DNA of 64,000 bases, taken from Cellulophaga sp. L1A9 (lineage in GTDB: Bacteria; Bacteroidota; Bacteroidia; Flavobacteriales; Flavobacteriaceae). The position numbers were made by a program, and so were the translations under genes. The DNA is taken from positions 124,001-188,000 of the forward strand of contig NZ_CP047027.1 in NCBI RefSeq assembly GCF_009797025.1. Direction: 5' to 3'. The notes beneath the pieces were generated by a model. That model saw only the letters and a list, made by a program, of their open reading frames with translations. It did no database searches and was not told the DNA's origin. Each line of letters starts with the position of its first letter. Position 1 is the first letter of the stretch. Shown here in pieces: positions 28,218-43,466 of the stretch.

Positions 28218-28271
28218 AAAGTGTTGGCTGTAGTTTGTTTTGTCAAACGAACTACAGCCAACACTTTTTTT
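28218..28271 (+). terminator. Long terminator hairpin
   Basis: Perfect 18-bp stem: left arm 28218-28235 (AAAGTGTTGGCTGTAGTT), right arm 28250-28267, with a 14-nt loop, running into seven T. It closes the luciferase-like gene. The remaining 240 bp up to 28512 show no feature I can support. Confidence 0.88.
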
Positions 28272-31121: not shown

Positions 31122-31705
31122 GTGATTAGTGGTAACAAAATACACACGGCGCTAACTACTTGGTTAAAGCAAAAAGGACAACAAGGAGGTAGCGGTTTTT
31201 TAGAGGTAACTTCTGATAAAGATAGCAACATAAATATGCGATGGCTTAATGACTCGCTCGCAGAAGTTGTAATTCCGCCATATGCAGAGGTCCTTAGAAA
31301 ACTGATTTTGTTTATTTTTATGGAAGAAAAATTACCATCCGCTATCCTACAGAAACCAGTAGTACTAACTTAAACTTTGATATGGCAAAAGAATTTAAAG
31401 AGACCGTAGAAAACATAAAAAACTCTGCTGTTTATGAAAAGAAACAGTATTGGGAAGAAAGAGGATTAAACCAATCTGATGCCGAAGTAGTTCATATATT
31501 ACGGACTTCAACCAATGATTTTCTTGACAAACTCAGCACAATTGTAAACGCTAACACCCCCAAAGAATCTAAGCTTACAGCTATCCAGAATATCGTTGAT
31601 AAGCTCCCTTGGGACGATTTGGATACGGAGGAAAAAGAATTTTTAAGCGAGGTTATAGCTCCTGCCATTGAAGCTGCGGGTTTTGATCCTTGGAGTATTA
31701 TTTAA
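31122..31705 (+). pseudogene. Frameshifted hypothetical protein (possible first cassette)
   Basis: Two frames join into one plausible protein of about 195 residues. Part one (GTG 31122) reads through MRWLNDSLAEVVIPPYAEVL to about 31298. Part two, in the next frame, reads TDFVYFYGRKITIRYPTE, then TSSTNLNFDMAKEF, and continues to the stop at 31705 (ending AIEAAGFDPWSII). A single-base loss in the A-run at 31298-31301 reconciles them. The second part has its own ATG at 31382 and may still be translated as a 107-residue protein. Its tail resembles the DUF4844-type end, but I am not sure. The GTG start is uncertain because the frame is open upstream to 31083. Confidence 0.55.
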
Positions 31706-31708
31706 AAA

Positions 31709-31780
31709 GAATAAAAAATTTATAGTTGATCTAGTTGACATTTATAACCTCTAATTTAACACCATCCCTACGTTTCTTAT
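31709..31780 (+). repeat. Cassette-boundary element R1 (degenerate)
   Basis: The 3' end CCCTACGTTTCTTAT (31766-31780) is the conserved 3' arm found in R3 and R4 and abuts the ATG of the next gene. The matching 5' arm GAATAAAAAATTTATAG (31709-31725) is weakly complementary. Best regarded as an eroded copy of the element family. Confidence 0.35.
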
Positions 31781-32896
31781 ATGTTCAGTACTTCAACAAG
31801 CAAAAAAGTAAAATCCCAAGACACACCCACTATAGATAAACAACCACTAAGGGTTAGTGATGGTAATACTCATTATATAGAGGAGCAAGGAGTTGCGTAT
31901 TTAAAACCAACAATAGGTATTAAGATTCTTATTTTATGCTTTAAACTATTGTTGCTTGGGGTATGGGGTGTACTTTTTTATGACCTTTTTATAGAAGACT
32001 TGAAGATGTCAAACTCTTTCTGGTTTTATGTGATTTACATTTGTATAAGTTTGCTACTATCTATTACTTTTTTGTTCGCTTATACAGATCATAGCACCAA
32101 ACGATACTTTAATAAAAATAATGGGAAATTTAAATTGAGTAGTATTGATTTCTCAAGGAAAGAGAAAAAAATTAAAAAAATTATAGGCATACAAATTATA
32201 GGCTATCAAAAACATCAAAAGGTTCCTAGCGGAGCATCAGGAAGTATAAAAGGTCTTTTTACCTATTTTCAGTTAAATGTTGTTATGAAAAATTATAAAA
32301 GGTATACTATAGCAACTTTTAAAAAACGTGAAAATGTCATGGAAGTAGCCCAGAAACTTTCTGTTTTTCTAACAAAACCAATATTTAATGAAATAGAAAA
32401 ATTTGAAGGCATTGATGAAGAAACTGAAAGATTAAGCAATAACTTCCATTCTAGATTAATACTGCAAGATGATTTTGAAATTAAGATGACCAAAGATGAG
32501 TTTCTAGAAAGATTAATCCATCATAAACATTATGAAATTATACAAGTCAATAAAAGCAGCTTAACAATTGACTCCACCCCATTAAACCTATTTAACTTCT
32601 CTTTAGGTAAGTTTATAAATCAAGGGCTATTTAAACCTTATATAGCCTATGTAGAATTGGAACAAAAAAATCATGTGATAAAAGTTACTATGAAAACTAA
32701 ATTCAGGTATGAATTTCTGCTCTACATTTCTGTCTTTTTAATACTGCTACTCTGTAACTTTTACGGTGTAGCAATGATAGTAATTATGAGTACGTTATTA
32801 TTTTGGTCCTTTCAACGTGGTGATGAAAAAGTGTTTTTTCAACTGATAAAAAAAGATGCCTTAGTAGAAGACAAAACTTCAAATATTATGGAATGA
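31781..32896 (+). CDS. Hypothetical protein with two membrane-helix pairs
   Basis: 371 residues. A soluble N-terminus (about 1-45), two helices (about 50-68 and 80-100), a large charged middle domain (about 105-300), and a final hydrophobic hairpin (about 312-342) before an acidic tail. No family recognised. The start lies directly on the conserved 3' arm of element R1, and the gene probably belongs to the cassette array. It is followed by 326 bp containing a possible remnant and element R2. Confidence 0.65.
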   Translation: MFSTSTSKKVKSQDTPTIDKQPLRVSDGNTHYIEEQGVAYLKPTIGIKILILCFKLLLLGVWGVLFYDLFIEDLKMSNSFWFYVIYICISLLLSITFLFAYTDHSTKRYFNKNNGKFKLSSIDFSRKEKKIKKIIGIQIIGYQKHQKVPSGASGSIKGLFTYFQLNVVMKNYKRYTIATFKKRENVMEVAQKLSVFLTKPIFNEIEKFEGIDEETERLSNNFHSRLILQDDFEIKMTKDEFLERLIHHKHYEIIQVNKSSLTIDSTPLNLFNFSLGKFINQGLFKPYIAYVELEQKNHVIKVTMKTKFRYEFLLYISVFLILLLCNFYGVAMIVIMSTLLFWSFQRGDEKVFFQLIKKDALVEDKTSNIME

Positions 32897-32910
32897 AAAT
32901 TAGATTTTAA

Positions 32911-33045
32911 GACATAGTACTATTCTTTATTTTCAACCATAATGGTGTTGTTGGCCTTCTAAAATACCTACCGTACATTGCAGGCTTTATATTTGATGTA
33001 ATTTTGATGCTAAAAAGTAATTTCGAGGTGTATAATGCTACTTAG
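32911..33045 (+). pseudogene. Possible small coding remnant
   Basis: A 45-codon open stretch after a TAA reads DIVLFFIFNHNGVVGLLKYL, then PYIAGFIFDVILMLKSNFEV, then YNAT and a stop. It has a membrane-protein flavour but no start codon; an ATG five codons before the TAA (MKIRF) suggests a nonsense-mutated small protein. Chance translation is possible. Confidence 0.25.
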
Positions 33046-33067
33046 TTTACTTTACGTACTAAAAATA

Positions 33068-33212
33068 AACACTAAAAAAGCTGTAGTAAAACGGTAAAAA
33101 CAAACAACTCTTAAAAAAATAGCCAATTTCTTACGCTCCATGTGGAAAACCGCAGACAACTATAAAAAATAGCAATTACTTTTGTAGGGAGTACCTGCTA
33201 TATTTTTAAGTT
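33068..33212 (+). repeat. Cassette-boundary element R2 with duplicated leader
   Basis: The core arms are AACTATAAAAAATAGCA (33158-33174) and TGCTATATTTTTAAGTT (33196-33212), 14 of 17 positions complementary, with AAC and GTT as the outer ends. The preceding 90 bp plus the left core (33068-33193) are nearly identical to 37711-37836 before another gene. The next gene starts 10 bp after the right arm. Confidence 0.6.
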
Positions 33213-33221
33213 ACCTACAAT

Positions 33222-33740
33222 ATGAAAAAACTGATATCTAGAGAAGAAAGAAATGAAAGATTGATAAGCTTTGGAATTTCAAAACAATTTTTATCTAACA
33301 TTGGAAACATTGATGAATTAGAATTTTTGGTTGAAGACCCTAAAGGAGCTTATTTCTATTTCCCTACAATGGATTATAAAATATTTTCTGGTTTTGAGAT
33401 TACACCAATTTTCGATTCTGGTGAGACGTTTTATGCATTATTTGAGAATAATAATATGAGCAAAATAGTCAAATTTGAACTTGAAAATGATGAAATTTAT
33501 TTTGATTATGGACAAAATTGGAATTTGCTACTACTAAGTATTATGATTGACCTATTTGACCAATATCTAGAAGATGAAATAAGTGAAAATAGATTTATTG
33601 AGATTGGGAACAAAATAGGTTTCGAAAAATCTTCTGAATTGTTTAATCTTAGGGATTTATCCGTTGAAGAATTAAATGAAAAATTTAAAGATAATAAAAA
33701 ATGGGAACTTGAAATAGCAGAAAAATTAAAAATATTATAG
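33222..33740 (+). CDS. Hypothetical protein (cassette cargo)
   Basis: 172-residue soluble acidic protein, no signal peptide or membrane helix. Aromatic, beta-rich central part (GAYFYFPTMDYKIFSGFEIT) and a Glu/Lys-rich helical C-terminus. Family not recognised; the composition resembles small immunity-type proteins, but that is only an impression. It is bracketed by elements R2 and R3, 9 bp after one and 7 bp before the other. Confidence 0.68.
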   Translation: MKKLISREERNERLISFGISKQFLSNIGNIDELEFLVEDPKGAYFYFPTMDYKIFSGFEITPIFDSGETFYALFENNNMSKIVKFELENDEIYFDYGQNWNLLLLSIMIDLFDQYLEDEISENRFIEIGNKIGFEKSSELFNLRDLSVEELNEKFKDNKKWELEIAEKLKIL

Positions 33741-33747
33741 GTAATAA

Positions 33748-33892
33748 GGTATAAAAAACATAGGGCGTTTGTACTAAATCTAAAGGTCTATGTATATTTG
33801 TAATGTAGCAAAATATTTATATTTAGCTAAGTAATAAACCGAAACGAAAGTGCTTATCTCCTAGCCTACGTTTCTTATACTGAACGTTAAAT
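33748..33892 (+). repeat. Cassette-boundary element R3
   Basis: 5' arm GGTATAAAAAACATAGGGC (33748-33766); 3' arm GCCTACGTTTCTTATAC (33864-33880), about 15 of 18 complementary with one gap. It ends with AACGTTAAAT, which fits the integron GTTRRRY core. The 3' half from 33811 on is about 85% identical by eye to R8 from 41521. Confidence 0.65.
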
Positions 33893-33924
33893 GCGACTAT
33901 GATAAACATCCTACCAACAATAGA

Positions 33925-35187
33925 ATGAACAATTTAAAAGACTTAAATATAGAAAAAGAACTTTTGCCATTGTTCGACCATTCTCTGAATAAGTTCGCTA
34001 AGAATAAAATTCTTAAAATTTTAGAAACACCTTTACAATCGACGAACGAGATTATCAAACGTCAAAACATATTAAAAGGTTTTACTGCAAACAATAAGGT
34101 TTTAAAAGATTACTCCTATACTGTATTATACTTAAATGAAGTATATTATTTTCTCGACGAAGAAAAAATAGAAGACTTATCGCAAAAGAAACTTAAGTAC
34201 AAATTATTTGCCTCTAAACAAGAAAAAACTAGATACATAAGTAGATTCAATCAATTAGTCTTATTTTTTCATCGTCTACAATCAAAATATTTTTTAAGAC
34301 TAGATTTAGAACAATTCCCAAAAGAATATAGCTCTAAAATAAACCAGATTTTACAATTTCTATCAAATTTCGAACTTCACAAATACGAACATATTATTAG
34401 AGAAGACAGGCTAAAAGATAAACATGTAATAGAGTTAACTGAAAAAATTAATGACCTGAAAGAAAAGGAATTGATAGCGCCTTTTTGGGAAAATTTATTT
34501 CTGTTTGAGGCTTATCTATCAATCAATTTAGGAATTAATAAAAATAATTTTAAATTTCCAAATTTTGACAAGAAACACATTAAATTAAAGGACTTTTATC
34601 ATCCATTAATCAATAAACCTGTAAAGAACGATTTTGAGACCGAGAGCAACGTAATTTTATTAAACGGACCTAATATGTCAGGTAAGTCAACTTTTCTGAA
34701 AGCTGTTGGTATTTGCATATATTTTGGACATTTAGGAATCGGAATACCTGCATCTTTTGGAGAAATTCCGTTTTGTAATCACTTTTCTATACAAATCAAT
34801 AGACGTGATGATATTCTAAATGGTTACAGTCATTTTATGACAGAAATAATGAATCTAAAAAATGTTGTTCAAAACGCTTCAAATGGAAAACAATGTTTTG
34901 CGATTTTCGATGAACTATTTAGTGGTACAAATGTAGAAGATGCGTACGAAATTTGCCAAACAACCATAAATGGTCTGAGTAAATTTAAAAATTCATATTT
35001 TTTTATATCAACTCACATTCAAGAATTGAAAAATGTTTCTAGTAACCAAATATCAAATTATTACATAGATTGCGAACTTATAGAGGACAAACCAACCTTT
35101 ACTTATAAACTTAAAAAAGGTTGGTCGGACATTAAAGTTGGGCGAATTTTATTTGACAAAGAAGGGCTAAATGAATTATTGAACTGA
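33925..35187 (+). CDS. MutS-family ATPase (short, cassette cargo)
   Basis: 420-residue protein with the MutS ATPase domain at its C-terminus: Walker A GPNMSGKST (about 248-256), the FSIQINRRDDILNGYSHF segment, Walker B CFAIFDELFSGTN (about 323-335), and the THIQEL His-switch region (about 357-362). The N-terminal 230 residues are helical, like a shortened MutS lever/clamp. It lacks the mismatch-binding domain I and is half the length of MutS, so it is not a canonical repair protein. It probably acts as a DNA-binding ATPase of unknown role. It lies between elements R3 and R4. Confidence 0.87.
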   Translation: MNNLKDLNIEKELLPLFDHSLNKFAKNKILKILETPLQSTNEIIKRQNILKGFTANNKVLKDYSYTVLYLNEVYYFLDEEKIEDLSQKKLKYKLFASKQEKTRYISRFNQLVLFFHRLQSKYFLRLDLEQFPKEYSSKINQILQFLSNFELHKYEHIIREDRLKDKHVIELTEKINDLKEKELIAPFWENLFLFEAYLSINLGINKNNFKFPNFDKKHIKLKDFYHPLINKPVKNDFETESNVILLNGPNMSGKSTFLKAVGICIYFGHLGIGIPASFGEIPFCNHFSIQINRRDDILNGYSHFMTEIMNLKNVVQNASNGKQCFAIFDELFSGTNVEDAYEICQTTINGLSKFKNSYFFISTHIQELKNVSSNQISNYYIDCELIEDKPTFTYKLKKGWSDIKVGRILFDKEGLNELLN

Positions 35188-35216
35188 AACAAAACATAGA
35201 AAAACGGCTTACAGCA

Positions 35217-35330
35217 GTGTATAAAAAACATAGGGCTAAGGCTTTCAAAAAGGTTTGTACTTGCTTACAAAGTCCGCCAAATAATAAACCAAAACGAATG
35301 TGCTTATCTCCTAGCCTACGTTTCTTATAT
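35217..35330 (+). repeat. Cassette-boundary element R4
   Basis: 5' arm GTGTATAAAAAACATAGGGC (35217-35236); 3' arm GCCTACGTTTCTTATAT (35314-35330). The 3' half (35281-35330) matches R3 almost base for base (TGCTTATCTCCTAGCC then the arm). The expected terminal GTT is not obvious. Confidence 0.6.
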
Positions 35331-35385
35331 TTAACTTCTGTAAACCATGTCCTTTAACGAACATTTAAAACAACTTCAGAACTGA

Positions 35386-36054
35386 ATGAAAATATATGGA
35401 ATTAGTGGACTTGGTGCTGATAAAAGAGTGTTTAGATATTTAACTCTTGAACACGAATTAATTCCAGTTGATTGGATTAAGCCAAAGAAGAATGAAACTC
35501 TGATTGGGTATTCAAAACGGTTGATTGAAGAATATGAAATTGGAAATGAAGCAGAGTTTGGTATTCTAGGAGTAAGTTTCGGAGGATTAATTGCAACAGA
35601 AATAAGCAAACTAACAAAGCCCAAACTCACCATTTTAATATCGTCTGTAGAAACAAGAACCGAATTAAGTGGAATTATTAAGCTTGCTGGAAAATCTAAA
35701 TTGATTGACCTAATTCCTGAAAAATTATTAAATCCACCAAAGGCAGCTGCTCATTTTATGTTCGGAACTGAAAACAAAGAATTGTTGAACTCAATTTTAG
35801 ACGATACAGATTTGAATTTTACAAAATGGGCAATTAGAGAATTAATGAATTGGAGTAACGAATCGCGACTGAATAATTTGATTAAAATAGGCGGGACGAA
35901 AGATAAATTACTTCCACCAAAAGGAGAAAACACAATTTTAGTTGAAAATGGAGCGCATTTTATGATAGTTGATAAAGCAAAAGAAGTAAGTGATATAATA
36001 AACGATCGAATAAAAACGTACTACAATCGCGTAGACGCCCCAATGGAAACGTAA
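35386..36054 (+). CDS. Alpha/beta hydrolase (cassette cargo)
   Basis: 222-residue alpha/beta-hydrolase with the nucleophile elbow GVSFGG (Ser about 67), preceded by an N-terminal strand MKIYGISGLGADKRVF. A late Asp (GTKDKLLPP) and His (NGAHFMIVDKA) complete the triad. It lacks a cap-domain insertion, so it is a minimal esterase/lipase-like enzyme with unknown substrate. The last residues (TYYNRVDAPMET) are encoded in sequence with a partial element-like look (TACAATCGCGTAGACG), which may be an eroded boundary. Confidence 0.85.
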   Translation: MKIYGISGLGADKRVFRYLTLEHELIPVDWIKPKKNETLIGYSKRLIEEYEIGNEAEFGILGVSFGGLIATEISKLTKPKLTILISSVETRTELSGIIKLAGKSKLIDLIPEKLLNPPKAAAHFMFGTENKELLNSILDDTDLNFTKWAIRELMNWSNESRLNNLIKIGGTKDKLLPPKGENTILVENGAHFMIVDKAKEVSDIINDRIKTYYNRVDAPMET

Positions 36055-36144
36055 AATGCTGTGTTATAATATTTCTCCTAGCTAAAGAAAGGTAATTTAA
36101 TTCTGTATTTTTAGATAAACTAACATGTACTTAAAAAAGAAATC

Positions 36145-36585
36145 ATGAGCAATATTTTTAGAACCCTATTCATCATCATGGTAATGGCTGCTACTGTTAA
36201 AGTAGCCCATGGTCAGAAAAAATTAGACCCACAAGCTATTACAGATTTACAAAAGACACCTAAATATGCTTTTATCCTTACTACAGAAAAGCATTTTAAG
36301 GGGGTATTAAGTATGTATGATTTGCTCATTGAAAATGGTGTCTTAATCGAAGATTATGAGATTGTGGTCAAAGGTAAGGTTGTTACCCAATTGGTAAAAG
36401 ATTCTGAATTAGAAGAATTGTTTCAAAAATATAAGGGAAAAGTTAAGGTAAGCGTATGCAGCGTCGCCATGGAAAAATTAGGAGTATCAGAAGAGATGCT
36501 TTTTGAAGGTCTCAATGTTACCTCAACGGCCTCAGTACGGATGCTTCAATTACAAGCAAATGGGTACAACACTTTAACGTACTAG
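36145..36585 (+). CDS. Exported DsrE-family protein
   Basis: 146 residues with a signal peptide ending AHGQ (about 24). The mature part follows the DsrE/DsrF-like fold: KYAFILTTEKHFKGVLSMYD, IVVKGKVVTQLV, VKVSVCSVAMEKLGVSEEML (one Cys, about 112). DsrE-like proteins handle sulfur or persulfide chemistry, and the single Cys could carry it. No clear boundary element flanks it, so it may be resident chromosome rather than cassette cargo. Confidence 0.75.
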   Translation: MSNIFRTLFIIMVMAATVKVAHGQKKLDPQAITDLQKTPKYAFILTTEKHFKGVLSMYDLLIENGVLIEDYEIVVKGKVVTQLVKDSELEELFQKYKGKVKVSVCSVAMEKLGVSEEMLFEGLNVTSTASVRMLQLQANGYNTLTY

Positions 36586-36940
36586 TAAGAACCTTTTTTT
36601 GTATTTACCCTGCGGCATTAACAATGGTTTTACTCCTAGTGCTAGAATCTAAAAAGAAAATAATACGGTAGGTATCGGATTGATTTTAACTTCTAGTTTG
36701 GTTTCATTCGATAGCAATGGAGGCTGTTTTGAAAATTCTGTCCAATTATATTTCTCAAAATAATGTAAAAAGATACATTGATTAGAATCGAAAAATAAGT
36801 ATAGTTAGAGTCTAAATAAAAGAATGGGATTTCTTATTTAAGATACAATCATTTAATAGCCTTGAACTTAGAATATTCACCGCGTGGTATGCCTACATTT
36901 AAATCAAAAACAAATCCAATAGATTAGTATACATAAAGTG
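36586..36940. other. 355-bp gap with weak coding traces
   Basis: No intact gene. Plus-strand pieces such as NTVGIGLILTSSLVSFDSNG (36661-36720) and GCFENSVQLYFSK (36723-36761) look protein-like but have no start and are interrupted. Minus-strand pieces are equally short. A decayed gene is possible; the strand cannot be decided. Confidence 0.25.
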
Positions 36941-36968
36941 TGGATAAACGTACCAATACGTTTATCCA
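36941..36968. promoter_or_regulatory. Perfect 12-bp palindrome upstream of YwqG-like gene
   Basis: TGGATAAACGTA and TACGTTTATCCA separated by CCAA, 24 bp before the ATG at 36993. No T-run follows, so it is not a terminator. It could be a dimeric repressor operator or an mRNA leader hairpin. Confidence 0.45.
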
Positions 36969-36992
36969 TATATTGCCAGTAATTACGAAAAA

Positions 36993-37700
36993 ATGACACT
37001 AGAGGAAATTCAAAATAAGATAGCAAAACCGATAACGAAGTTTACTACTGGTGGATTTAGACCTGAAAACACGATTGAAGAAAGTTGGATTGGACGCGTT
37101 TTTGCTTTTTATGAAGATGAGGATATCCCGACTGATAAAAATGGTGATTTAATGATTCCATTGGGACAATTTCACATCCAAAATCTTCCTTTAATTCATA
37201 AAAATATTCAAGACACAAAATTAATTACGGTATTTATATCTAAGGAATTTCCCGACTGTCTTGAAAAAATGGGAGATAATTGGTTACTAAGAGAATATAA
37301 GACGCTAGAAGGAATAAAAATTAAAGATTTAAAGAACCCTGAATCTTTTTTAAAACCATTTCCGTTAAAACCTCAATTTATTGAAAAAGATTTCCCCATT
37401 TGGGATGGTGGTGGACTATCAAGAAAATTGGAAGATGAAATAATCAAATTGGAAAATGACGGTTTTATCGATTGTTATTATGATATAACTGAACACACTT
37501 ACGAACATAAAATAGGTGGTTATCCTTCTTTTTGCCAACCTGGAATTGGCGATTCTGATGGTTTTGGTGAAGGTTTTGAATTTGTTTTTCAAATCTCTTC
37601 TGACGGAAAAGCTAATTTAAATGTGGTAGACAGTGGTAGTTTTATGTTTGCAAAAAACAAGGAAACCGAAGAATGGAGTATTTATTATGATTTTTATTAA
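36993..37700 (+). CDS. DUF1963/YwqG-family protein (cassette cargo)
   Basis: 235-residue soluble protein of the YwqG/DUF1963 family. Hallmarks are IPLGQFHIQNLP (about 51-62), the HKIGGYPSFCQPGI motif (about 169-182), and the C-terminal FVFQISSDG...DSGSFMFAKN strands. These proteins are widespread, of unknown biochemical function, and often found beside toxin/immunity genes. It is preceded by a 12-bp palindrome and followed by element R5. Confidence 0.85.
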   Translation: MTLEEIQNKIAKPITKFTTGGFRPENTIEESWIGRVFAFYEDEDIPTDKNGDLMIPLGQFHIQNLPLIHKNIQDTKLITVFISKEFPDCLEKMGDNWLLREYKTLEGIKIKDLKNPESFLKPFPLKPQFIEKDFPIWDGGGLSRKLEDEIIKLENDGFIDCYYDITEHTYEHKIGGYPSFCQPGIGDSDGFGEGFEFVFQISSDGKANLNVVDSGSFMFAKNKETEEWSIYYDFY

Positions 37701-37710
37701 TGAAAAAATG

Positions 37711-37867
37711 AACACTAAAAAAGCTGCACGACAACCGTAAAAATAAACAACTCTTAGAAAAATAACCAATTTCTTACGCTCCATGTGGAAAACCGCGGAC
37801 AACTATAAAAAATAGCAATTACTTTTATAGGGAGTATATTAGGAGTAATTAACTATATATATAAGTT
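37711..37867 (+). repeat. Cassette-boundary element R5 with duplicated leader
   Basis: Core arms: AACTATAAAAAATAGCAATTAC (37801-37822, two parts) and GTAATTAACTATATATATAAG (37845-37865, then TT). About 16 of 22 positions can pair, with outer AAC and GTT. Bases 37711-37836 are close to identical to 33068-33193 at R2. Confidence 0.6.
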
Positions 37868-37915
37868 ACTTGCAAGCTGAAAAAAATAATAAGAAATCAA
37901 ACAGTCAACCCAAAA

Positions 37916-39163
37916 ATGAAAAAGCTATTTTTAATAATCTTCCTTTTTACAATTATATTTTCGTGTAAACAGAAAAATGAGACCAAAAACACGACCGAAA
38001 AAAATAATACTGCAATAAACGATACATTGACTAACAACTTGCAACTAGCTTACGATAAAGATGCAATTATCGGGTTTTCAGTATCTGTGGTAGGCGAAAA
38101 TGGATTAATTTATGATAAAGGATTTGGATTTACAGATATTGAGGGACATAATTCTTACAAATCAAGTACAATTCAAAACATTGCCTCAATATCAAAAACA
38201 CTTTTAGGGATTTCCATTTTAAAAGCACAAGAATTGGGAAAATTAAATATTAATGACCCTATCAATAAATATTTGCCTTTTGAAATTATCAATCCAAATT
38301 ATCCTGAAAATCCAATTTTAATTAAGCATCTGGCATATCATACATCTTCAATAATTGACCTAGACGAGATTTACGGAAAATCATATGTTTTAGAAAAATC
38401 TGAACACGCAGATAATGAAGGAGTATTTGATTACTTTAACAAACCCGAAACAAAGATTTCATTGTTAGAGTTTATTCAAAATAGCCTGACTGAAAACGGA
38501 AAGTGGTACACTAAAGACACATTTTCTGACACAAAACCGGGAGAACATAGGGAATATTCAAATATTGCTGCTGCTCTTTGTGCACAAATAATAGAATCTG
38601 CAACTGGACAGAATTATCAGTCCTTTACAAAGGACAACATACTAAACCCATTAAATATGCTAGCTTCTGGTTGGTCATCAGAAGATATCGACATCGCAAA
38701 ACGTTCTAAATTGTTTGCGAACAAGGAAATGATGATAGCCGATTATTCACTAATTACTTATGCTGATGGTGGATTTATTACATCAAGTGAAGATTTGGGA
38801 TTATTCTTATCTGAATTAATTAAGGGTTACAAAGGCAAAGGAGTTTTGCTAAAAAAGGACAGTTATGATAAATTGTTTGAAAAACAAAAATTTTCGCGTG
38901 AAGAAACTGACGGAGAATTTGGAATCTTTATGGAGTTTAGAGATGAATTCTTGGGTGTGAAGGAAGAACTGATTGGTCATAATGGTTCTGACCCAGGAGT
39001 AATGACAGCTATGTATTTCAATCCTAAAACAGAAATTGGAAAGATATTAATTGTAAATACGGACACGAATTTTACCGATAATGTGTGGCCAGAAATACAA
39101 TCAATTTGGAAATCCTTAAACGACTACGAAACGGAATTAAGCAATGGAAAAGCCAGCAGGTAA
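37916..39163 (+). CDS. Serine hydrolase, class C beta-lactamase fold, lipoprotein (cassette cargo)
   Basis: 415-residue lipoprotein (lipobox IIFSC, Cys about 17) of the beta-lactamase/D-alanyl carboxypeptidase superfamily. Active-site motifs: SISK (Ser-x-x-Lys, about 92-95), YSN (about 219-221) and HNGSDPG in place of KTG (about 355). Relatives are esterases, peptidases or beta-lactamases; activity is not predictable. The stop TAA overlaps the start of element R6 (GGTAACCGTG). Confidence 0.88.
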   Translation: MKKLFLIIFLFTIIFSCKQKNETKNTTEKNNTAINDTLTNNLQLAYDKDAIIGFSVSVVGENGLIYDKGFGFTDIEGHNSYKSSTIQNIASISKTLLGISILKAQELGKLNINDPINKYLPFEIINPNYPENPILIKHLAYHTSSIIDLDEIYGKSYVLEKSEHADNEGVFDYFNKPETKISLLEFIQNSLTENGKWYTKDTFSDTKPGEHREYSNIAAALCAQIIESATGQNYQSFTKDNILNPLNMLASGWSSEDIDIAKRSKLFANKEMMIADYSLITYADGGFITSSEDLGLFLSELIKGYKGKGVLLKKDSYDKLFEKQKFSREETDGEFGIFMEFRDEFLGVKEELIGHNGSDPGVMTAMYFNPKTEIGKILIVNTDTNFTDNVWPEIQSIWKSLNDYETELSNGKASR

Positions 39164-39167
39164 CCGT

Positions 39168-39350
39168 GTATATAAAAAATAGCGCAAGTCTTTGCAAACA
39201 TTAAGGTTTAAGCATTTTAGGAAGTAGCCAAATTTTTAAATTTGACGATTTCCCAAAAATAAAATAAATAATAAATTTAAAAATCCGATTTTTGTTTAAT
39301 CCGAAAAGTAATCAGTTATTTGAGCGCTACTTTTGATATACGAGCTGTTG
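39168..39350 (+). repeat. Cassette-boundary element R6
   Basis: Best-paired copy: 5' arm GTATATAAAAAATAGCGC (39168-39185) and 3' arm GCGCTACTTTTGATATAC (39324-39341) are complementary at 16 of 18 positions, 138 bp apart. AACC precedes the left arm and GTTG follows the right one at 39347. The middle is AT-rich and not shared with other copies. Confidence 0.65.
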
Positions 39351-39379
39351 GAAATAATTTAAAAGAAACCAAAAAACAT

Positions 39380-40553
39380 ATGAATAAATTACTTACTTAT
39401 CTACTATTATTTTTTGTTTTATCTAGTTTTACTCCAAGAAATGAATTGTTAAAAACTAACTATATTAAAGAGATTCCGTTCAATTTTGATTACGGAGTAC
39501 CAATTATTAAAGCCTCAATTAATGATATAGAATACAACTTCCTATTTGATACAGGAATGCCAACTGTTCTTTCAGAAAACATAACTAAAGAGCTTAAATT
39601 AGAAAGTATTCGTACTGCAATGGGAATGGATGTTAATGGTAACAAAAAACAGGAAAGTTATGTTATAGTTAATGAAATTATTGTTGGAGGAATTAGTTTT
39701 AAAAAAATTGAAACCCTTACAACTGATTTAAGCGCTGGTTTCGAAATTGGTTGTCTAAATTTAGATGGAGTAATTGGAAATAATTTAATCAAGAATGCCA
39801 TTTGGGAAATAGATTATGAAAAAAGGGTAATTCGCCTCACTGACAATATTGATAATTTTAAAATTCCCGAAAGCGCTGATATTATTAAGTTCAAAACAAA
39901 TGAAAAAAAAGGATATTATTCGCCTAATATAGATGTTAAAGTAAATAAAAAGAAAAGGTGTGAAATTTGACACTGGCTCTAATGGTGGAATTAAATTACC
40001 ATTGGATTTTTACTCAAATGTTCTTGACACCAATAAAAGTGTTGAATATTATGGTAAGGCTTCTACTGCAATATATGGTAAAGGCGAAAACAAAAACTAT
40101 GTAGATTCAAAAGTAAATTCTATTGAAATAGGTGATTTACAACTGCAAAATCAGATTGTGACCTTTGACGAAAACTTTCCAAAAATTGGCAATAAATTCT
40201 TTAAAAATTTCAAAATTATCATAAGCTATGATGAGAATAACATATATATGATAAAGCAAAAAGAATACAGTAATACAGTATTGGAAAATTTTGGTTTTCA
40301 AACTGGTATAATTGACCAAAAAGCAATTGTCTCTCTCGTGTATAAAAATTCTAACGCTGAAAAAAAAGGAGTTCAATTGGGCGATGAAATAGTAAGCGTT
40401 AATGATTTGAATTTTTCAGAATTGATATCGAAAGATGCTTGTAATATTTTATTTAATAATCCTATCAAGGAAATGGACTCAATGAATATTCTTTTTTCAA
40501 GAAACGGAAATAAACAATCCTTACAGCTGGAAAAAGAGACTTTAATAAATTGA
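39380..40553 (+). pseudogene. Frameshifted retropepsin-like aspartic protease with PDZ domain
   Basis: Two frames make one protein of about 390 residues. Part one (ATG 39380, signal-like start MNKLLTYLLLFFVLSSFTP) has the first protease half with LFDTGMPT. It runs to about 39952 and stops at 39970. Part two continues in the next frame as VKFDTGSNGGIKLP, with a second DTG half, then a C-terminal PDZ-like region (GVQLGDEIVSVNDLNFSELI) to 40553. One extra A in the run at 39953-39956 explains the shift. Double-DTG proteases with PDZ tails are a known periplasmic type. It may be a recent mutation, a sequencing artefact, or true decay. Confidence 0.8.
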
Positions 40554-40572
40554 AAAACTATTACCAGCAATT

Positions 40573-40690
40573 CATATAAAAAATTGCTAAATTCAACAAT
40601 ATAGAATGTGTATAAAATATAAAAATACGAACCTTAAACATTGGAAAATTGCGTTTTAAAAATCGCAACTATTCATACACAAGACTGTTA
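40573..40690 (+). repeat. Cassette-boundary element R7 (divergent)
   Basis: 5' arm CATATAAAAAATTGC (40573-40587) and 3' arm GCAACTATTCATACA (40665-40679) pair at about 10 of 15 positions; GTTATAGGGC follows. The weakest copy, accepted mainly because its position after one gene and 19 bp before the next matches the other copies. Confidence 0.42.
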
Positions 40691-40708
40691 TAGGGCATAA
40701 AAAACAAA

Positions 40709-41425
40709 ATGGGACATATTTCAATAGTTTATGGAATGATTAAATTGAATGATGTTAAATCATTTCATAAAACCATATTAGATATGAAACCTGACGAAAA
40801 TTATCCTTGGATAAGAGCTGAGATGTTTAACACTAAATCAATTGAATCCCCATATTATTACGAGAATCCAATAACAACTTTTGGGACTACTTATAAAAAT
40901 TTAAGTGGTGGAAATGATTGGTCTGAATTCATTTTAAAATTTGAATATTTACTTGATAAAATTGACTTTAATTATGCAAGAATTAGATTTGAAACTGAAT
41001 TTTTAGGAGATTTTGAATTCTTTTGGGGTAGAAAAACTGGAAAAAACCCTGAATTTTACAAAAAAGATGATTTAATAGAACAAAATAAATGGTTCTTTGG
41101 TTATGGATTTAGACATATGTACGGTGACCTAATTTGTAAAAACACTCCTGACGTCCCTTTTGATTTTAAGTACCCTATTGAATTTGATATAGATGCAAAA
41201 AACAGTTTTAATGAAATAATTCCTGAGCTCAATAAAATTCAAATTAACACAAAAGAATACTTTGATAACCAGGCTAGAATACTTAAAAATGACGGTTCAA
41301 ATCTGATTTTGACTTATTTAAAATTAAATGAAGTGATAGAATATGGTTGGGAATTTAAAAAAGGATTCTTTTTGAAAAGACTAAAAAAAATAAAAAAAAT
41401 AAACACGCCCTACAACGCGGTATAA
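40709..41425 (+). CDS. Hypothetical protein (cassette cargo)
   Basis: 238-residue soluble protein, rich in aromatic residues and Lys/Asn, with no signal or membrane helix. Begins MGHISIVYGMIKLND; a Phe/Trp-rich centre (GDFEFFWGRKTGKNPEFY). Family not recognised. Its C-terminal codons TPYNAV and the TAA stop are supplied by element R8 (the stop is the TAA inside GTATAAAA), showing that gene and element are joined tightly. Confidence 0.68.
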   Translation: MGHISIVYGMIKLNDVKSFHKTILDMKPDENYPWIRAEMFNTKSIESPYYYENPITTFGTTYKNLSGGNDWSEFILKFEYLLDKIDFNYARIRFETEFLGDFEFFWGRKTGKNPEFYKKDDLIEQNKWFFGYGFRHMYGDLICKNTPDVPFDFKYPIEFDIDAKNSFNEIIPELNKIQINTKEYFDNQARILKNDGSNLILTYLKLNEVIEYGWEFKKGFFLKRLKKIKKINTPYNAV

Positions 41426-41604
41426 AAAACATAGGGCGTTTGTGCTCGCCGAAAGGTCCGTGAATATTAACAAAGGCCGCTAAAGATAAAATTTGGCGTT
41501 TATAAAGGAAAAGGTAAACTCAAAATATTTATATTTAGCTAATAACAAACCGAAACGAGAGTGCTTATCACCTGCCCTACGATTTCTTATATTTAATGTT
41601 AGGC
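41411..41604 (+). repeat. Cassette-boundary element R8
   Basis: TACAAC, then 5' arm GGTATAAAAAACATAGGGC (41419-41437); 3' arm GCCCTACGATTTCTTATAT (41574-41592), 15 of 19 complementary; then GTTAGGC (41598-41604), an exact match to the integron GTTRRRY core. The left 25 bp match R3, and the right 80 bp also match R3. The middle (41445-41520) is unique. Confidence 0.68.
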
Positions 41605-41622
41605 AACATATCAACAAACTAA

Positions 41623-42078
41623 ATGAACTGGACAGAATACCGTGAACAACTAATAAAAAATATAGTTGTTCTTTCTTCAGAACATAGATTAGATTTTGCT
41701 ATTAAAATTTGTGAAAAACTTCTACCTGATTATAAAACTTTCTACAATGAATGTAAATGGGGAGACTTAGATTTACTCACAGATGGACTCATCTTGTGTA
41801 AGCAGAACGCAAATGGACTTGACTCCGATGTAAAGACAGTTGAAAGACTGATATCTAGAATTGAAGAAATCACACCTGATATGGAGGATTTTGAAGAAGT
41901 TAGTGGTTCTTTAGCTTTGAACTCTGCCAACGCTATGAGTGAAACGTTAAATTTTATTCTGGACAACAAAACTGAACGAATAACGGACATCGGGAGTTTT
42001 AGTTATGATTCGGCTTTCTTTAAAGCAGGCGAATTTAATACTAAACTCTCTGACGCTGAAGTTGAAAACGAAATTTAA
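41623..42078 (+). CDS. DUF416-family protein (cassette cargo)
   Basis: 151-residue soluble protein matching the DUF416 pattern: SSEHRLDFAIKICEKLLPDY, then TFYNECKWGD, then an acidic helical C-terminal part (LALNSANAMSETLNFILDN). DUF416 proteins are small, helical and functionally uncharacterised. It is flanked by an exact 10-bp inverted pair, GTTAGGCAAC at 41598 and GTTGCCTAAC at 42133, which delimits the candidate cassette. Confidence 0.8.
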   Translation: MNWTEYREQLIKNIVVLSSEHRLDFAIKICEKLLPDYKTFYNECKWGDLDLLTDGLILCKQNANGLDSDVKTVERLISRIEEITPDMEDFEEVSGSLALNSANAMSETLNFILDNKTERITDIGSFSYDSAFFKAGEFNTKLSDAEVENEI

Positions 42079-42132
42079 AAGATTACTCTTGTTTTATAGG
42101 GGTCAAAACAGCAGTTAGAAAAAACAAAATAC

Positions 42133-42275
42133 GTTGCCTAACAATACCAATGAAGTAATACGAGGTATGGTATTTAATTTAATGTTTTGCGTATATTTAC
42201 TATGTCCGCAAAATCTTTCCGCTTTTGCTCTGGAAAATAAAAATAAATCAAAACAAAAAGCTTTAGCTTCGTATT
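42133..42275 (+). repeat. Cassette-boundary element R9 (different subfamily)
   Basis: Begins GTTGCCTAAC, containing the RYYYAAC core GCCTAAC (42136-42142), then inner complementary octamers TAATACGA (42156-42163) and TCGTATTA (42268-42275). The sequence between the arms differs from R1-R8. It follows the DUF416 gene by 54 bp and is the last element before the toxin-antitoxin pair. Confidence 0.45.
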
Positions 42276-42355
42276 AAGACTATATCGAAAAGTTTCCTTC
42301 CCCCCTCCCTTCGCTTAGCTCAAGCGTTAGCAGTTATTAAAAACATTTCGAATAT

Positions 42356-42387
42356 TTTGTTTATTTCGTTTATTTCGATTAATTTTG
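42356..42387 (+). promoter_or_regulatory. Candidate Bacteroidetes-type promoter for the TA operon
   Basis: TTTG (42356-42359) and TAATTTTG (42380-42387, fits TAnnTTTG) with 20-bp spacing, the -33/-7 pattern of the flavobacterial primary sigma factor. The ATG at 42403 is 15 bp downstream. The repeated TTTATTTCG units between the boxes might bind the antitoxin. Confidence 0.45.
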
Positions 42388-42402
42388 ATTAAATTAATTA
42401 TT

Positions 42403-42861
42403 ATGGAACCTTTAATCAGAAGAACTACAAAAGATGACCAAAAGATTGCATTAAAATCTTTACAAGGTTTTCAAGTTGTATCACAAAGAATAAAATCTTC
42501 TCGTAAAAAAGGGGTTAAAATAAAAATACAAGAGACCGGAGAATTTATTACTATCCCTAAAAAGGCTCTGACATTACTTTCTGCAATAATTCAAAATATG
42601 GCTGAAGGAAAAACAATTTCAATTGTCCCTTCTAATTCGGAAGTAAGTACACAACAAGCTGCTGATATGTTGAATGTATCAAGACCTCATTTAATAAAAC
42701 TTCTTGAAGCTAAAAAAATCCCCTTTAATAAAGTAGGTAGTCATAGAAGAATTTTATTAAATGATATTATGGAATATAAAGAACAACTCGCTAAACAAAG
42801 AGAGGCTCAACTTGATTTCTTATCCAATCAAGCGCAAGATTTAAACCTTGGTTACGAATGA
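42403..42861 (+). CDS. HTH (excisionase-type) antitoxin
   Basis: 152 residues. The C-terminal half has an excisionase-family winged HTH (STQQAADMLNVSRPHLIKLL, then a KVGSHRRILLNDIMEY recognition segment). The N-terminal half is basic and helical. It overlaps the PIN-domain gene by four bases (ATGA), the classic coupling of an antitoxin-toxin operon, so it likely neutralises the nuclease and autoregulates. Start ATG 42403 is preferred to TTG 42385. It lies at the end of the cassette array. Confidence 0.87.
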   Translation: MEPLIRRTTKDDQKIALKSLQGFQVVSQRIKSSRKKGVKIKIQETGEFITIPKKALTLLSAIIQNMAEGKTISIVPSNSEVSTQQAADMLNVSRPHLIKLLEAKKIPFNKVGSHRRILLNDIMEYKEQLAKQREAQLDFLSNQAQDLNLGYE

Positions 42862-43466
42862 TACATTCACCTAGATTTACTGTTGTATTAGATGCCTGTG
42901 TTTTATATCCAGCGCCAATTAGAGATATCTTATTATCTCTCGCAGCAGAGGGTTTGTTTAAAGCGAAATGGTCTGATATAATTCAGGATGAGTGGCTACG
43001 AAATCTTTTGAAAAATCGGGCAGATTTGAAAAAAGCACAATTAAATCAAACTATTAAAGCTATGAATCAAGCTTTTCCTGATGCCAACGTTGAAAACTTT
43101 GAAGACCTAATACCAAGTATTAAACTCAAAGATAAAGATGACAGACACGTAGTGGCTTGTGCTATAAGATGTAATGCTGATTTAATAGTTACATTTAACA
43201 TAAAGGATTTTCCTAAGAAAGAACTATCAAAATATGATATAGAAATACAAAATCCTGACGAGCTGATTTCGAATTTAATTGATATCAACCCCAAACTAGC
43301 CTGTAAAGCTTTTAGCAAAATGGTAAAAAGACTTAAAAACCCAAGGAAGACAATAGATGAGGTTTTAAACACATTAGAAAATTGCGGATTAAAGAAAAGT
43401 ATAGAAAAATTAAAAAACAACTGCCAACCAAGAACTGAATCTAAAAACAAGAAAATTCTTCTTTAA
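42858..43466 (+). CDS. PIN-domain toxin
   Basis: 202-residue PIN-domain ribonuclease. The acidic metal site is visible: VVLDACVLYP (Asp about 11), EWLRNLL (Glu about 45), KDDRHVVACAI (Asp about 93), and VTFNIKDFP (Asp about 116). The C-terminal helical extension (about 140-202) is typical of PIN toxins paired with excisionase-type antitoxins. It probably cleaves RNA when free of the antitoxin encoded just upstream with a 4-bp overlap. Confidence 0.88.
   Translation: MIHSPRFTVVLDACVLYPAPIRDILLSLAAEGLFKAKWSDIIQDEWLRNLLKNRADLKKAQLNQTIKAMNQAFPDANVENFEDLIPSIKLKDKDDRHVVACAIRCNADLIVTFNIKDFPKKELSKYDIEIQNPDELISNLIDINPKLACKAFSKMVKRLKNPRKTIDEVLNTLENCGLKKSIEKLKNNCQPRTESKNKKILL

Follow-up and report, generated by a model that had tools for sequence, protein, structure and literature searches.

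Which recombination system could have assembled a row of co-directional genes in a genomic region with no integrase in view? This question is raised by a 64,000-nucleotide (nt) stretch of the marine flavobacterium Cellulophaga sp. L1A9, referred to here as the window (bases 124001-188000 of one 5.07-Mb contig, on which dnaA lies at 111-1502). Between about 31 and 42 kb of the window, genes are interspersed with stem-forming elements. The original prediction, made from the sequence alone, read this region as integron-like cassettes separated by attC-like (att) sites, assembled by site-specific recombination and comparable to a cluster of attC sites lacking an integrase (CALIN). The window array itself is a relic, and the actual finding is the wider system behind it. 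The window very probably holds a CALIN-like relic of an integron-type system whose XerA-like tyrosine recombinase, devoid of the I2 domain, stands at the head of arrays. The attC-type boxes, fixed A.C pairs, non-IntI recombinase and decay of the window array are features beyond that prediction.

Sites and cassettes

The elements of the window share a left arm, GTATAAAAAACATAGGGC (18 nt), with exact copies at 33749, 35219 and 41420 and a copy at 39168 that has three mismatches, and a right arm, CCTACGTTTCTTATA (15 nt), found exactly at 31767, 33865 and 35315. Four left-arm matches compare with a shuffle mean of 0.17, and 0 of 100 shuffles reach four. Flanking the arms are a left box, RYYYAAC, and a right box, GTTRRRY, as in attC. 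Further arrays exist in the same genome, including a large minus-strand one at 3.83-3.90 Mb, and a site rule was applied to these and to related loci. It demanded AAC, then A 9 and 14 bases on, with mirrored C and C before GTT, and complementarity between the arms at no fewer than 11 of the remaining 14 positions. AAC and GTT are thus part of the rule itself, and the scan requires ungapped arms, from which bulged sites would escape. Loci L012-L023, which overlap later loci, were excluded from site counts. Altogether, 82 sites were found in 586 kb, and none when the mismatch letters were swapped or the sequence was shuffled. A relaxed rule, with one base of spacer play and 12 of 14 positions required, gave 163 sites in 1.75 Mb, as compared to 0, 0 and 0 with swapped letters and 1 in shuffled sequence.

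The two mismatched positions are a constant part of the stem. When they were left free among ungapped stems pairing at 13 or more of 14 positions (n = 127), A.C occurred at both in 117, A-T plus A.C in 6, and other combinations in 4. At stem position 7 all four base pairs occur, and this position is paired in all 50 distinct arm pairs with A.C at both special positions. Mismatches of the A.C type on the top strand are T.G wobbles on the bottom strand. The bottom strand gives the more stable fold in 143 of 163 distinct sites, and the L stem (at least 12 of 16 pairs) appears in the best fold of 115 bottom against 74 top strands, a test biased to the bottom strand because the sites were chosen by the A.C rule. 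For one long site, the L stem forms only as bottom strand (z -2.38 vs -1.40 for the top). A folded single strand is a predicted substrate of recombination, as in the original prediction. Two extrahelical bases on the folded bottom strand are an attC feature (PMC3053210). Such bases were not seen in the ungapped-arm scan, where the sites have equal-length arms with two fixed A.C pairs.

A cassette usually consists of one gene plus an attC-like site of approximately 120-200 nt; for units below 4 kb the median length is 848 nt (77 units, 7 arrays). As in integrons, the units lie in one orientation, and RYYYAAC (R'') and GTTRRRY (R') boxes surround a palindromic site. The boxes match across the cassette rather than across the site. 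Among 54 pairs of opening and closing boxes, taken from consecutive sites less than 2.5 kb apart with more distant pairs excluded, 35 agree at 7 of 8 scored positions (mean 5.85), whereas the two boxes within one site score 2.67 (79 sites), against 2.68 for random pairs. In a permutation test, 0 of 10,000 rounds reached the observed sum. Complementarity of this kind is the footprint that would be expected of a circle closed at GTT.

Whole units recur. Comparison of 134 cassettes from 17 arrays gave 40 pairs with most of the body in common; in several pairs the shared part is no more than an insertion sequence. The Cellulophaga algicola array contains three identical copies of a 644-nt body, two arrays of the own genome share an identical body of 650 nt, and two genomes share one of 741 nt at 99.5% identity. 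The ends were examined in 11 of the 40 listed pairs; several of the others share an insertion sequence only. At the closing end, identity runs 3-6 bases beyond the G of GTT and then stops in 9 of the 11 pairs, and stops 4 bases earlier than GTT in the other 2. At the opening end, it starts 1-8 bases ahead of GTT in 10 pairs and 49 bases ahead in one.

Additionally, 6 of 7 copies of an insertion sequence starting TGACCCGTCCTG lie at a distance of exactly 14 nt past the GTT G of att or attI sites, as if targeting them. The copies are found in the own main array (L006-L009, 3 copies), L024, L026 and L031, and the seventh copy is in L003.

Recombinase at the array head and competing explanations

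Frames of XerA-like tyrosine recombinases, 378-418 amino acids (aa) long, lie upstream of arrays on the same strand, so the co-occurring tyrosine recombinase that had been suggested as a check was found. In 20 recombinase-bearing loci, all 120 sites are downstream, 0 are upstream and none is on the opposite strand, although five of these loci hold just 343-1158 bases of upstream sequence. Within each array the sites run one way. In the own main array, five more sites lie downstream of its broken recombinase gene. This gene, at 3.903 Mb, is split by a frameshift, and the arrays of the own genome may therefore be frozen. In the window, no recombinase of the array-head family was found at a cut-off of E 1e-60, in agreement with the earlier observation of no integrase in view.

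For 13 of 16 recombinase genes, inspection by eye showed a dyad past the stop codon, followed by AATTGTT, TACGTT or similar where the first cassette opens; the attI-like dyad ends AATTG^TT or TACG^TT. It was not seen by eye at L030, L032 and L064. A recombinase gene with an attI-like dyad at one end is again an integron feature, though the recombinase is not IntI. Upstream of the recombinase, 6.8 kb are conserved at 84% between the own genome and G016 and 2.0 kb at 85% between it and G005, and pieces are 71-83% alike with Winogradskyella ursingii and Seonamhaeicola aphaedonensis. On the other side of the gene, what matches is mainly sites, an insertion sequence and a few pieces. Different cassettes thus follow a locus with a conserved upstream side, which is the opposite of a gene order conserved without gain or loss of units.

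Could a classic IntI work these sites, making the array a plain CALIN? The RYYYAAC/GTTRRRY boxes, the cassette-circle signature and the CALIN layout are those of integrons, the generic NCBI name of many array recombinases includes 'integron integrase', Bacteroidota are among the integron-bearing phyla in reviews (PMC8618304), and one paper describes the insert as incompletely conserved in the integron-like subgroup (PMC8138268). Integron integrases are recognised by an IntI-specific domain (PMC9668308), described as unidentified elsewhere and as having co-evolved with the extrahelical bases (PMC4792948). However, no place in 60 genomes, the own included, exceeds the curated IntI cut-off; two array recombinases score 209 against this cut-off of 265, and four true IntI score 373-442. 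In the alignment, 19 site-associated recombinases have 67-68 residues over the stretch for which the four IntI have 90-110, and an IntI integrase with the IntI-specific (I2) domain was not found among the array recombinases. They also fall outside the IntI clade in a tree for which 14 near-identical, short or odd recombinases were named for exclusion. Together with the fixed stem mismatches, this makes an ordinary integron very improbable.

The Flavobacteriaceae system looks like integron cassette recombination on its sequence features, and unlike a classic IntI system. The likeness to integron recombination is drawn because boxes match across the cassette, identity ends at GTT, and sites lie downstream of a co-directional recombinase. 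As in IntI/attC integrons, cassettes follow one another in tandem, all facing one way and mostly with a single gene each; R''/R' boxes are present, the opening box of a cassette complements its closing box, a tyrosine recombinase with an attI-like site lies at the head end, and recombinase-less clusters occur elsewhere in the genome. In contrast, the recombinase here lacks I2, lies outside the IntI clade, is co-directional with the array and often bears a HARP-like N-terminus; box complementarity extends over 10 nt, and in the stems found, fixed A.C/T.G pairs replace extrahelical bases. Since neither the I2 domain nor (for ungapped sites) the extrahelical bases were found, the system is not filed under the IntI/attC family as defined. 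The Salinibacter ruber integron and the Bacteroidetes In0 elements (IntegronFinder 2.0, PMC9024848) belong to the same broad phylum group as used there, but their integrases were detected by an IntI-specific profile (PMC9668308), whereas the recombinases here are without that segment.

Many array recombinases carry a HARP-like N-terminal domain. The N-terminal 75 residues match the profile of 4O66 (E 1.3e-4) with the same strand-helix order. HARP of SMARCAL1 and the XPB N-terminal domain are alike in profile and in this order, but are part of helicases, whereas the domain here is fused to a tyrosine recombinase. A HARP (PF07443) match above its curated cut-off was obtained for L075 (29.4 vs 25), a locus without sites; matches at E up to 1 were given by 4 of 15 N-terminal segments and none by the own-genus protein. 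Recombinases of 305 aa without the N-terminal domain also head arrays in L034 and L040, with an attI-like dyad past the gene. The accession PF22823 is precomputed on P0001 and most of its 120 listed relatives, and was not reported by a Pfam scan of the three tried.

A small zinc-ribbon-like gene (127 aa in the own genome) divergently adjoins the recombinase, with matches in 24 loci, own included (L009 9959-10339), and at both loci with the 305-aa recombinase; none was found in site-bearing L032, L049, L064, L073 and L082. Its product shows a weak treble-clef likeness and DUF2116 at E 6e-4, below the cut-off of that family. It is perhaps an accessory or regulator of the system.

The sites are widely distributed in the family. 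A long-site pattern was found in 71 of 199 Flavobacteriaceae genomes (one per genus; reversed pattern 1/199) and in 17 of 395 phylum-wide genomes, mostly Flavobacteriaceae (reversed pattern 1/395). At a looser recombinase cut-off, sites occur in 59 of 125 genomes with and 12 of 74 without a match (Fisher 7.8e-6). These 12 of the 71 site-bearing genomes would suit host XerC/XerD recombining the sites as they do for integrative mobile elements exploiting Xer (IMEX), the array-side recombinase being a passenger. For CTXphi, XerCD is described as using a folded phage strand without extrahelical bases (PMC4792948). IMEX phages such as CTXphi thus share with the present system a folded single strand of this kind, here predicted, and a Xer-like enzyme without I2; they differ as phages without cassettes, dedicated recombinase or array. 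Two findings speak against a passenger. In several genera, arrays are headed by a recombinase with an attI-like dyad, and sites co-occur with the close recombinase family: of the 199 genomes, 34 have this family and 26 of them carry sites, compared with 45 of the 165 without it (Fisher 1.6e-7). Recombination by the host enzymes is therefore rated as very improbable.

Miniature inverted-repeat transposable elements (MITEs), non-autonomous transposons with imperfect terminal repeats lying by chance between genes, would explain arms that resemble terminal inverted repeats, but with a single orientation per locus where MITEs take either, gene-carrying units ending at GTT, and boxes matching across the gene and not the element, they are largely contradicted and have next to no probability. 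Equally remote is a reading of the elements as terminators or conserved structures of transcribed RNA within ordinary operons: they are indeed intergenic, stem-forming and on one strand, but the GTT ends largely contradict this, whole units recur, the fixed positions read A.C on the sense strand and can form pairs on the opposite strand alone, and the window has no Rfam match above the gathering score.

In the own genome, the long-site pattern has 11 matches on the plus and 23 on the minus strand; the plus matches lie at 0.22-1.86 Mb, and 9 listed of the 23 minus matches at 3.66-3.87 Mb. Assuming an origin near dnaA, 20 listed of these 34 long-class sites run with the replication fork, as leading-strand genes. 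Two observations concern other genera. In Rufibacter (L054 13342-20120), a run of short (~75 nt) attC-like sites of another class lies behind a recombinase with a HARP-like N-terminus, and relatives of the recombinase exist on plasmids of Persicobacter, Chryseobacterium and Pontibacter (records H1-H4; 37-43% identity, 93-98% covered).

Proposed mechanism and its place among integrons

A possible course of recombination can be outlined for the flavobacterial system. The bottom strand of a site is predicted to fold, forming R''/R' and L''/L' stems. Its two fixed T.G wobbles would replace the bulged bases and mark the strand and box for cutting. The recombinase, perhaps aided by the HARP-like domain, would cut at the GTT box and join one strand to attI or another site, and the junction would be resolved through replication. 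The footprint seen in sequence consists of GTT-bounded gene-plus-site units with complementary boxes, as expected of former circles, recurring whole elsewhere. The chances seem about even that a separate Bacteroidota integron lineage without I2 and without extrahelical bases is represented, in which T.G wobbles mark the strand and the HARP-like domain grips branched DNA in most members, and which is either a parallel invention or a living pre-I2 stage.

Bacteroidota, or the Bacteroidetes/Chlorobi group, are named among integron bearers (PMC8618304, PMC9668308, PMC2426708); the 11 taxa covered by attC models in Ghaly 2021 include no Bacteroidetes (PMC8352920). The open literature, searched by listings, gave no account of these flavobacterial arrays. 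Escudero et al. 2016 regard the origin of I2 and extrahelical bases as a chicken-egg paradox for which intermediate forms would help (PMC4792948). A widespread cassette system seemingly without both would offer natural enzymes and sites for probing this paradox, and could reveal a way for integrons to function, or to originate, without the I2 part. These findings also suggest that searches depending on an IntI profile miss cassette arrays in a mostly marine family (long-site pattern in 71 of 199 sampled genera), and with them a largely unread reservoir of mobile genes.

The window array and its neighbours

The genes and sites of the window array are as follows (Pfam none, no Pfam family found).

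31382..31705, + strand: cassette gene, 107 aa; open frame, Pfam none
31766..31786, + strand: right half of att site, right arm (exact 15 nt at 31767), then GTTC; left half not seen
31781..32896, + strand: cassette gene, 371 aa; open frame, Pfam none
33061..33193, + strand: 133-nt repeat copy 1, perhaps decayed att site, then box GTTACCTACA at 33210; 92% to 37704-37836, otherwise weak match to L004 only
33222..33740, + strand: cassette gene, 172 aa; Pfam none; opening box GTTACCTACA (33210) and closing box TATAGGTAAT (33736), complementary 8/10 (by-eye count)
33739..33892, + strand: att site, clean stem, both fixed A.C pairs; 13 of 14 stem positions
33925..35187, + strand: cassette gene, MutS domain V protein, 420 aa (Pfam)
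35206..35346, + strand: att site, clean stem, both fixed A.C pairs, boxes GGCTTACAGC and TCTGTAAACC (by eye); 13 of 14 stem positions
35386..36054, + strand: cassette gene, 222 aa; open frame, Pfam none
36145..36585, + strand: gene, DsrE family, 146 aa (Pfam)
36993..37700, + strand: gene, DUF1963, 235 aa (Pfam)
37704..37836, + strand: 133-nt repeat copy 2, perhaps decayed att site, then box GTTACTTGCA at 37865; 92% to copy 1
37916..39163, + strand: cassette gene, Beta-lactamase family (PF00144), 415 aa (Pfam)
39157..39357, + strand: att site of the long class with one of its two fixed pairs altered; closing box AGCAGGTAAC at 39155, following opening box GTTGGAAATA at 39347; matches L031 and L008 sites at 84%
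39320..40553, + strand: two overlapping open frames, 216 and 197 aa, by eye resembling one frameshifted gene
40560..40696, + strand: doubtful decayed att site, terminal box GTTATAGGGC (40687); sequence reading and comparison
40709..41425, + strand: cassette gene, 238 aa; Pfam none; opening box GTTATAGGGC and closing box GCCCTACAAC (41407), complementary 9/10
41407..41607, + strand: att site, 1-nt insertion in right arm, terminal box GTTAGGCAAC (41598); arm match and sequence comparison
41623..42078, + strand: cassette gene, DUF416, 151 aa (Pfam); opening box GTTAGGCAAC and closing box GTTGCCTAAC (42133), complementary 10/10
42133..42345, + strand: last att site, decayed and with arms of another class, ending at about 42345; similarity to L004 and L007

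All long open frames spanning 31382 to 42078 are on the plus strand, as had been described. A Pfam scan of ten cassette-region proteins assigned a family to 5 (MutS domain V (MutS_V), DsrE, DUF1963, Beta-lactamase (PF00144) and DUF416) and gave no match for the other 5. The prediction had counted nine elements of one family: the arms are real and recurrent, but the nine are not equivalents: two of them are clean, three are variants, one is a half-site, and the remaining three are doubtful. The element from 42133 is 81% identical over 159 nt to an L004 site that passes the site rule, and a stretch of L007 (main array) that resembles a site but fails the rule matches it at 93% over 118 nt.

Two results from the window weigh against its interpretation as a cassette array. 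Within the window by itself, cassette-box complementarity does not reach significance (39 plus-strand and 39 minus-strand pairs, 16-27 in ten shuffles), and its significance derives from arrays other than this one. A loose arm scan of the window gave 14 matches against 5-8 in five shuffles; because the shuffles give so many, the 12 weak matches are mostly noise. Nevertheless, judged by its sequence, the window array looks like a decayed, integrase-less CALIN-like cluster of a flavobacterial integron-type system. Both the comparison with CALINs and the proposed site-specific recombination are borne out by the footprints in orientation, in whole units ending at GTT and in the array-head recombinase.

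Two neighbouring features were also observed. An inverted repeat at 28218-28267 of the window (23 nt, 96% complementary, 4 nt between arms) is probably a terminator. Directly past the array, at 42385-43466, lie adjacent open frames of 158 and 202 aa, the first helix-turn-helix-like by eye, which are perhaps a toxin-antitoxin pair.

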